Positions 22,988-25,419 of a stretch of DNA of 37,687 bases are shown here, in pieces. Source of the DNA: Bdellovibrio sp. (GTDB lineage: Bacteria > Myxococcota > SpSt-1050); the NCBI GenBank assembly GCA_020725805.1, contig DYEF01000019.1:1-37687 (forward strand). The letters are read 5' to 3'. Within the stretch, counting starts at the first letter, position 1. Each line of letters starts with the position of its first letter. Made by a program: the position numbers and the translations under genes. Below the pieces are notes generated by a model. It was not told where the DNA came from and did not search any database. It saw only the letters and a list, made by a program, of their open reading frames with translations.

Positions 22988-24577
22988 TTACTTGCCGCCG
23001 CAGGAACCCTGAACCTTCTGGTCCTGTGAAAGCTTGTTCTCACAGCCGGCCTGTCCCTGATTGTATTTGCAGTAATTGGTCTTGATTGTCTCTGCATCAA
23101 TTCCGCCGAACTGGTACTTGTTGTTGGCCAGGAAGGTGGGACTGCCGCTCATACCTGCATTCTTTGACTCCTCGAAGCTCTTCTTGAGAAGTTCCTTTCC
23201 TTCACCGTCAAAGCATTTCTGAATAACCTTCTCGTCAATACCATTCGAACCTGTGCAGGCCTTCCAGTCGTTATTTCTGTAATCCTTGCTTCTGCATACG
23301 AGATAGTCCATAAATTTGTAATTCTTGGAATAGTGCTTGATTGCACATATCTCTCTGATATCCTCATCCACCTCCGACTGCCCGTGCATAGAGGAGAGAT
23401 TCCCGTTATTGACATCTCCTATAAAATGAACATTGAATTTGATGTCATTTTTGAAATTGTCCAGAACTTCCTTCATTGCAATAAGGGCCTTTGCGCCGTA
23501 CGGGCACTGGGACATTACATATACATCAAGAGTCTTTGGAGTTTCGGGACGGCAAACGAGCTTGCTCTTGCAACCGTCATCATCACAGTCAACCTTTCCG
23601 TTGCCATCATCATCGATCTTGTTATCACATATCTCGGCAGTCGGGTCAAAAGAGCCACCAATTGCCAGAGAATAATACTTGTCGCCTACTGGCCTCAGCC
23701 ATCTCTCAAGCGCACTCTTGCCGTCCTTGTCGGCATCAATCGATTTGGTAAAGAGTATTACCGGCAGATATTTCATCTCGGGACTGATACCTGTAAGTTC
23801 CTTATAAAGAGCCTTGCCTTCATCTGTCATATAATCGACCTTCTGGACAGAGAGCCCTTCGATATCGCTCTTGATTCTGCCTTCAAGTCTGTCGATATTG
23901 CAATCCGGACATCTCTTGTCACTGAAGAAGATTGCATCTACTTTCGGAGCAACAGGGATATTCATACAGGCATCCGGTTTCTTCCCCTGATAGGTGTCAC
24001 ATATTGCCTTCAGAAAGTTTGATGTCTTCCTGCCGCCGTTATAGGCCTGACCATTGAGGAATATTGTAGGTGAACCTCTGGCTCCCTTTTTGTTTGCCTC
24101 TTCAAATGAATCCGAGAGGAGCTTCTTTCCTTCATGTCCTTCCAGACAGCCCTTGAGTTTCGCCGGATTCATACCGTTTTCCTTAGCACAGGCCTCCCAG
24201 TTCGTTGCAACCTCTCTGTAGTTCTTATTCTGGCATACGAGGAAGTTCATATATTTGTTAGGGAAGTGTTTCATTGCACAGAGCTGTACAATATCTCCTT
24301 TTACCTCATTTTCACCGTGCATCGATGAGAAATTCCCGTCAGGAGTCTTGTTCCCGATGTAATTTATCTTTAATGTCATATTCGGACCGAGTTTCTCCAC
24401 TACCGGAGCAATTGCGTTTACAACCTGAACCCCGTACGGACATTGGGACATAATATAAAATTCAAGGACAGCCGGTTTATCGACTACTTTCTTTACATTA
24501 CTCCCGCCTTTTGGTGCACAGGCAACAAATGTAAGTAAAAAGACCAACAAACTCAAAACAATAATCTTTCTTGTCAT
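22988..24577 (-). CDS. Triple thioredoxin-fold lipoprotein (two GILT/DsbA-like domains around a CPDC domain)
   Basis: 529 residues, lipoprotein signal ending at Cys20 (LTFVAC). Domain 1 (about 35-205) and domain 3 (about 348-510) are clear duplicates: both have YIMSQCPYG or YVMSQCPYG (C46, C358), 'NLSSMHG..EV..DI....CA.KH', and the cis-Pro loop GSPT. The HG-x2-E-x6-8-C pattern recalls the GILT signature, with Val and Asp where GILT has Cys and Asn. The usual CxxC is reduced to one Cys. Between them (about 210-310) is a thioredoxin-like domain with CPDC (223-226). At 315-337 lies CDN-IDDDGNG-VDCDDDGC, a Ca-binding-like motif common in deltaproteobacterial surface proteins. It is likely a periplasmic thiol-redox protein. 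It has its own promoter, ribosome site (AAAGGAG) and terminator. Confidence 0.82.
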   Translation of the reverse strand: MTRKIIVLSLLVFLLTFVACAPKGGSNVKKVVDKPAVLEFYIMSQCPYGVQVVNAIAPVVEKLGPNMTLKINYIGNKTPDGNFSSMHGENEVKGDIVQLCAMKHFPNKYMNFLVCQNKNYREVATNWEACAKENGMNPAKLKGCLEGHEGKKLLSDSFEEANKKGARGSPTIFLNGQAYNGGRKTSNFLKAICDTYQGKKPDACMNIPVAPKVDAIFFSDKRCPDCNIDRLEGRIKSDIEGLSVQKVDYMTDEGKALYKELTGISPEMKYLPVILFTKSIDADKDGKSALERWLRPVGDKYYSLAIGGSFDPTAEICDNKIDDDGNGKVDCDDDGCKSKLVCRPETPKTLDVYVMSQCPYGAKALIAMKEVLDNFKNDIKFNVHFIGDVNNGNLSSMHGQSEVDEDIREICAIKHYSKNYKFMDYLVCRSKDYRNNDWKACTGSNGIDEKVIQKCFDGEGKELLKKSFEESKNAGMSGSPTFLANNKYQFGGIDAETIKTNYCKYNQGQAGCENKLSQDQKVQGSCGGK

Positions 24578-24620
24578 TTCTATTCTCCTTTCGAAAATAG
24601 TTCAAAAATAATGAGCATAC

Positions 24621-24648
24621 CTTATACATTAATATTCTATGATATCAA
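24621..24648 (-). promoter_or_regulatory. Promoter of the triple thioredoxin-fold lipoprotein gene
   Basis: Minus strand: -35 TTGATA (24648-24643), 16 bp, -10 TATAAG (24626-24621), 44 bases before the start codon at 24577. Spacing matches the other promoters. Confidence 0.6.
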
Positions 24649-24724
24649 GTAAAAAAATTCATAATTTTTAACTACCGAACATTTTTATCGTGTCCTCAAA
24701 ACTTTTACCTTTAATAATAACACC

Positions 24725-24752
24725 TTGACATATCACATATGTATAGTAGAAA
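24725..24752 (+). promoter_or_regulatory. Promoter of the 24781 lipoprotein gene
   Basis: Perfect -35 TTGACA (24725-24730), 16 bp, -10 TAGAAA (24747-24752). An AAGGAGG ribosome site at 24769-24775 then precedes the ATG at 24781. Confidence 0.6.
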
Positions 24753-24780
24753 TATCTCAACTTTTTAAAAGGAGGCTCTG

Positions 24781-25419
24781 ATGAAGAGATGTATTTTTGT
24801 GTTTGTATTAATTCTTATCGCCGGCTGTGCCGGACAACTTAAGCAGACTCCGCTTAAAATGGCGGATGTGTCTGACAAACTGTCTGAATTCGACAGCAAA
24901 CCCGAAATGAACTTTGTTGCAAAGGCAGGGATAACTTACGCAACTACCGAGATGAACAAGTTTGATGACTTTTTCAGAAAGTCAGCCGCCGTCAAAGGGA
25001 CAATTGTAGTAGCAAAGGGACTGATGGAACACCAGAAAAATCTCCTTATGAATCTTGGTAAAGAAATAAACATTACTGATTTTTCAGATATCAAAAAAGT
25101 GGCAGAAGAACTCAAGAGCAAAAAGGGTAATATTGCAAAAGAGAAGATCGAACCGCTGAAAAACTGCGTTAATAATATGCTTACTGTCAAGGACCTTCTT
25201 ATGGGACTTGAGGGAAAAACCAAGGAACTCATTTCAGAAGGAACCAACCTCGTCAACATCGCTCCGAACGAACTGAAATCTGACCCCAAAAAGGCGATGA
25301 CCATTCCAAAAGCATTAAAAGACTCCATTAATAACCTCGAAGGGGCCGGGAAGGAAATTCCGGAACTCGTAAAATCATTTACCGAACTGGTAGATTTAGT
25401 CAAACCGATTATCGAATAG
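24781..25419 (+). CDS. Small helical lipoprotein of unknown function
   Basis: 212 residues beginning MKRCIFVFVLILIAGC with an excellent lipobox (IAGC, Cys16). The mature part is almost entirely charged, helix-forming sequence with heptad-like spacing of Leu, Ile and Val and only one Cys (NCVNNM), suggesting a helical bundle or coiled-coil. I recognise no family. It is a single-gene unit: a strong promoter and ribosome site in front, and an intrinsic terminator 19 bases after the stop. That arrangement suggests an abundant, independently controlled envelope protein, which is inference. Confidence 0.75.
   Translation: MKRCIFVFVLILIAGCAGQLKQTPLKMADVSDKLSEFDSKPEMNFVAKAGITYATTEMNKFDDFFRKSAAVKGTIVVAKGLMEHQKNLLMNLGKEINITDFSDIKKVAEELKSKKGNIAKEKIEPLKNCVNNMLTVKDLLMGLEGKTKELISEGTNLVNIAPNELKSDPKKAMTIPKALKDSINNLEGAGKEIPELVKSFTELVDLVKPIIE

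Follow-up and report, generated by a model that had tools for sequence, protein, structure and literature searches.

In the 37,687-nucleotide stretch of Bdellovibrio sp. DNA analysed here (hereafter, the window), a gene on the minus strand, at positions 22988–24577, encodes a 529-amino-acid, three-domain thioredoxin-fold lipoprotein whose full length is conserved among its relatives. All features of this gene are on the same strand. The protein begins with MTRKIIVLSLLVFLLTFVAC, a lipobox-type signal (24518–24577) in which the lipobox LLTFVAC ends at C20, and this position was Cys in 53 of the 76 aligned relatives. Archaeal relatives carry a hydrophobic N-terminal stretch in place of the lipobox. 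Judging from its sequence, the window protein is an outward-facing, lipid-anchored bacterial surface lipoprotein. From the N- to the C-terminus, it is characterized by a GILT/DsbA-fold domain with CPYG (domain 1), a domain with CPDC (domain 2), an acidic loop with four Cys, and a second CPYG domain (domain 3). The arrangement proposed in the first-pass annotation, two CPYG thioredoxin-like domains around a CPDC domain, was confirmed by Pfam, by alignment and by the predicted fold.

An intrinsic-terminator-like hairpin, with a stem of 13 pairs followed by a T run, was found by sequence scan (22963–22935, minus strand), in agreement with the terminator that the annotation had assigned to the gene. 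The promoter that it had also assigned was not recovered, no sigma-70-type site being found on the minus strand in the scan. A divergent gene encoding a 212-aa lipoprotein is located next door (24781–25419, plus strand), and both genes must have their promoter region within the 200-bp gap that separates them (24578–24780). ORF clustering around 80 relatives revealed no recurrent neighbour gene, and no pathway was supported. The largest non-family cluster (21 loci), considered as a conserved operon, was rejected: it lies on the opposite strand, and its example, L056:5746-7614, overlies the family gene, as antisense frames are expected to do where G+C content is high. We also searched the window's genome for another, hidden GILT gene and found only the one at 22988–24577. 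Also encoded in this genome are a VKOR-DsbA fusion (L112; G000:C66:83796-84191), a DsbD-thioredoxin protein (L113; C18:27626-28264) and a CcdA-thioredoxin protein (L114; C17:10450-11067), so that both oxidising and reducing envelope partners exist.

Domain 1 (aa 36-205; 23963–24472) exhibited seven invariant Cys, with CPYG at the active-site position (C46-G49; 24431–24442) and no tail of its own. Domain 3 (aa 347-515; 23033–23539), with CPYG at C358-G361 (23495–23506), is its duplicate within the one protein (39% identity). The GILT family PF03227 scored 88.3 bits for the whole protein, against a gathering cut-off of 22.4, and each outer domain was above the cut-off (58.3 bits for domain 1 and 39.4 bits for domain 3), the matches covering aa 38-133 and the equivalent segment of domain 3. 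PF01323 (DsbA; 51.9 bits, cut-off 25.6) and PF13462 (Thioredoxin_4; 45.8 bits, cut-off 23.2) were also matched above their cut-offs; PF25011, the TRX domain of the plant vacuolar sorting receptor (VSR), scored 24.2 bits against 27, and NF041057, the Rcas_1661 thioredoxin-like (seleno)lipoprotein, 26.6 bits against 190, both below. A profile of the family searched against PDB sequences matched mouse GILT (E 2.3e-7), and the six non-active-site Cys of domain 1 all align with Cys of that protein. The internal duplication and the kinship to GILT noticed in the first pass therefore hold, as do the conserved HG..E and downstream Cys of the outer domains, found here as HGxxEV with C100 and C411.

The AlphaFold2 model, built with 73 relatives, had a mean pLDDT of 93.9 (approximately 97 in domain 1). 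When the whole model was searched with Foldseek, mouse GILT (6nwx) ranked first, with a TM score of 0.78 by target length, followed by Staphylococcus aureus DsbA (3bci) and then by the VSR; a model of the minimal archaeal domain also had 6nwx as its top PDB match. The predicted fold is thus thioredoxin-like, with GILT as the best match, and the only relative from a known non-redox family is the VSR domain, below its cut-off. Both outer domains contain GSPT (Ser-cisPro-Thr). CP[YF]G was observed almost throughout the family, and the active-site Cys, the cis-Pro and the Gly were as invariant as the structural Cys, although the invariance of the Gly is partly built into the set from our genome scan, whose patterns included 'MSQCP[YF]G'; separate profile searches had no CP[YF]G requirement. 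By Pfam score and modelled fold, the protein belongs to the GILT superfamily, and by its motifs it lies outside the GILT thiol reductases, a group defined by CxxC and the complete signature. The first-pass view that the protein is not a plain DsbA was also supported.

Domain 2 (aa 212-310; 23648–23944) is a thioredoxin-like domain with CxxC and Leu-Pro. It was confidently modelled, and its profile matched the archaeal protein disulfide oxidoreductase (PDO; 1a8l / 1j08) weakly (E 2e-5 to 7e-5). Its motif is RCPDC, the two Cys of the dithiol (C223 and C226; 23900–23911) are invariant (79 out of 79), and an invariant Leu-Pro (LP271-272) suits the cis-Pro position. The protein therefore combines monothiol sites (CPYG; C46 and C358) with a dithiol site (CPDC), as had been noted. 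Between domains 2 and 3, where the first reading had placed a Ca-binding-like motif, we found an acidic four-Cys linker (aa 312-342; 23552–23644) with an EF-hand-like stretch, DDDGNGKVDCDD. The nearest model, NF033662 ('acidic double-disulfide repeat'), matched it below the curated cut-off (E 2.5e-6; 27.1 bits against 41). The four linker Cys were conserved in 81 out of 81 rows, and two relatives (L012 and L015) kept them while having lost the acidic loop.

To find relatives, 84,980 GTDB species genomes were scanned, which yielded 454 stretches, with relatives encoded in 421 of them. The 80 relatives kept were mostly from Myxococcota / 'Deltaproteobacteria' MAGs, with a minority from a few Oligoflexia, Acidobacteria, proteobacterial and archaeal MAGs. 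Within the window's phylum, a GILT match was found in 21 of 193 genomes, all 21 belonging to the present family, and of 194 genomes from the phylum to which one archaeal MAG (labelled Nanoarchaeia) belongs, 96 contained relatives at E <= 1e-10. The CPYG-CPDC-CPYG order, for which the first-pass annotation had suggested a phyletic survey, recurs; because some 80 aligned relatives share the layout with every one of its Cys, neither the domain layout nor the Cys pattern is, on this alignment, due to chance. The window protein is, by these searches, one of a large family and not an isolated oddity. The literature searched contained no account of GILT-like CPYG proteins bearing a tail Cys. A 2008 survey stated that no prokaryotic homologues of GILT were known (PMC2398784); contrary to that statement, Myxococcota-type MAGs and small-genome archaea commonly encode proteins of the GILT fold.

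Several architectures were observed: three-domain proteins, domains 2 and 3 only, GILT-GILT, and a single GILT-like domain (approximately 240-480 aa). One three-domain protein (L010; 1498-3339, minus strand) carries PQQ/YVTN beta-propeller-like repeats (NLYAVDVNTGKKKWDFDVKGGLT...) in its N-terminal 90 residues, ahead of the three domains, and a 336-aa archaeal protein (L182) contains domain 2 alone, after a long charged coil and a membrane segment, with no GILT-like domain. Six archaeal three-domain proteins (L045, L063, L079, L089, L097 and L116) shared about 45-50% identity with the window protein. On a quick tree of weak support they fell among bacterial rows and needed only one change, which points to possible transfer between domains of life or to mixing within the MAGs.

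A feature missed in the first pass alters the likely mechanism. The C-terminal tail (aa 513-529; 22991–23041; ENKLSQDQKVQGSCGGK), which extends past the last structural Cys, C512, and which in relatives is of low complexity and rich in G, A, S, T and P, contains a Cys within its last four residues (C526; 23000–23002). In the 81-row alignment, 20 Cys (seven in domain 1, two in domain 2, four in the linker and seven in domain 3) were invariant wherever the region was present; C526 is the 21st conserved Cys, present in 75 of the 81 rows. One protein (L070/L015), at first scored as tail-less, actually runs off the end of its contig. In a wider set of 142 non-redundant proteins (85% identity) in which the last GILT-like domain has CPYG or a close form, a tail Cys was found in 138. 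In 136 of these it falls among the last 8 residues, with a gap of at least 10 residues to the Cys before it, and in two (L083 and L100) an extension comes after the same GSCG; one of the proteins counted (L133) is doubtful, with a glutaredoxin-type domain last. No scan pattern required this Cys. Four CPYG proteins had no such Cys: L101, L181, and the pair L025 and L027, which group as sisters on the tree. Selenocysteine in the tail was considered, and the members lacking the Cys were inspected for an in-frame TGA at its position. The genes of L025 and L027 end in TGA; unlike in relatives, however, no further stop follows within a few codons, and an ordinary stop is more likely.

Among CxxC-type DsbA (Thioredoxin_4) proteins from the same two phyla, used as a control, only 1 out of 59 had a Cys among its final 8 residues; the control began as 60 proteins, two with such a Cys, from which L214 was removed as a CPYG member with a tail. 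The difference between CPYG proteins and controls was significant (Fisher's test, p ~2e-42, uncorrected for shared ancestry). Two paralogues with CPYA in domain 3 (L081 and L090) both had no tail Cys, nor did a dithiol relative with CPFC (L183). L081 and L090 are second copies, in genomes that also hold standard members (L038 and L051). The tether before the tail Cys was 13-43 residues long and rich in G, A, S, T and P, and was never shorter than 13 although shorter lengths were allowed. It contained a near-constant Leu (109 out of 135), often followed by Ser, with other positions variable, and the Cys itself usually occurred in the context G[S/G]C[G]. Since the Cys stays while the tether varies in length and shares little sequence beyond the Leu, these comparisons indicate that the tail Cys is under selection. 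The tail was modelled with moderate pLDDT (71 for aa 521-529 in the window protein; 63-78 in the minimal model).

What such a Cys might bond to can be approached through the Cys count. The minimal archaeal proteins with one CPYG domain (L132, L147, L164 and L180) each contain eight Cys in all: the CPYG Cys, six more at positions shared with GILT, and the tail Cys. Counted from the last CPYG onwards, the number of Cys was even in 126 of 135 proteins and exactly eight in 106 of the 135. Should the other six form the same pairs as in GILT, elimination leaves the tail Cys with the CPYG Cys, and we infer from this that the two are pairing partners. The CPYG of the last domain is probably, therefore, part of a pair and not a lone thiol. 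The tail accompanied the last GILT-like domain with or without domains 1 or 2 (L120-L122 and L132); because proteins with domains 2 and 3 only, and those with one domain, keep it, the partner most likely lies, from these architectures, in the domain directly before the tail. After the lipid Cys, a typical three-domain protein contains 21 Cys, which is an odd number. Given this and the missing tail of domain 1, C46 must act otherwise or stay free: it may remain unpaired, be reached by the C526 tail, or exchange with CPDC.

A different partner, outside the chain, would be expected if the tail Cys formed an interchain disulfide, either in a covalent homodimer or to another surface protein, with the GILT-like domains serving mainly as structural or binding modules, as in the VSR. 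We consider this unlikely, though worth weighing. The extreme C-terminal position on a flexible tether would suit such a bond, the precursor of human GILT is a disulfide-linked dimer through a Cys of its C-terminal propeptide, and VSR thioredoxin-like domains were among the fold and sequence matches. That VSR match, however, is under its cut-off, and the proposal explains neither why the active-site Cys, cis-Pro and Gly match the structural Cys in invariance nor why the tail Cys is nearly absent from the CxxC DsbA controls.

The relay put forward in the first-pass annotation, in which the monothiol CPYG domains are isomerase-like sites that pass electrons to the central CPDC, gives the tail no part and seems improbable. 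It does account for a CPDC that is both invariant and central, and the monothiol C75S form of human GILT kept some activity towards one virus (PMC6818130). But domain 2 is missing from many archaeal relatives that keep CPYG and the tail Cys, which argues that CPYG functions independently of domain 2, and the conserved tail Cys would have no explanation. Among the relay, isomerase and redox-sensor roles offered in the first pass, the analysis favours none over the others. Very improbable, in our view, is a soft-metal or haem site in which C358 and C526 bind a metal ion (copper, mercury or arsenic), by analogy with chaperones and reductases that have C-terminal Cys tails. Two lone Cys, one of them mobile, could in principle form a two-coordinate soft-metal site; against this, there is no conserved Met/His-rich segment, metal-resistance genes were not recurrent beside the gene in the neighbourhoods of 80 relatives, and the cis-Pro, a hallmark of thiol-disulfide exchange, is invariant.

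The reading that we prefer, which we hold to be evenly balanced between right and wrong, is that of a monothiol GILT-fold oxidoreductase whose missing resolving Cys is supplied by the tethered tail Cys. In this scheme, C358, in the CPYG of domain 3, would attack a disulfide of a substrate or partner, after which C526 would swing in and resolve the mixed disulfide, replacing the second Cys missing from CPYG, in the manner of the C-terminal shuttle cysteines known from redox enzymes elsewhere. Electrons would pass between the CPDC domain and one of the outer domains (domain 1 or domain 3), as well as between CPDC and the cell's envelope redox enzymes (VKOR-DsbA, DsbD-Trx or CcdA-Trx); the direction may be that of an oxidase, a reductase or an isomerase. 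More tentatively, Myxococcota-type bacteria and small-genome archaea may share a 'split CxxC' subfamily, in which the second Cys of CxxC has been given up and a tethered C-terminal Cys resolves instead. If the tail Cys does resolve CPYG, the active site of a thioredoxin fold can be divided, with one part in a domain and the other on a mobile tail, and the tether would set the distance between the thiols and hence the substrate choice and the redox potential.

Compared with known systems, the protein is closest to GILT, with which it shares the fold, the PF03227 score in both outer domains, HGxxE and six further aligned Cys. GILT, however, has CxxC where domains 1 and 3 have CPYG. Its signature, CQHGx2ECx2Nx4C, corresponds here to SMHGxxEVxxDxxxxC, in which HG, E and the last Cys are kept and the two Cys of CQHGxxEC are replaced by Ser/Met and Val. 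Unlike GILT, moreover, the window protein combines two copies with a CxxC domain in one lipoprotein, carries a tail Cys, and is of a bacterial and archaeal type. With the DsbA family (PF01323 and PF13462; nearest fold 3bci), it shares the thioredoxin core, the helical insert, Ser-cisPro-Thr and an extracytoplasmic location, but its domains 1 and 3 have no second active-site Cys, it has many more structural disulfides, and its tail Cys is missing from the DsbA controls. Domain 2 is similar to the first half of archaeal PDO (1a8l / 1j08), with CxxC, but the match is weak (E about 1e-5 to 1e-4) and domain 2 is a single unit set between GILT-like domains. The linker resembles NF033662 in its four Cys and DDxxNGxxDC spacing; that model describes repeats, whereas the window protein has one copy, under the cut-off.
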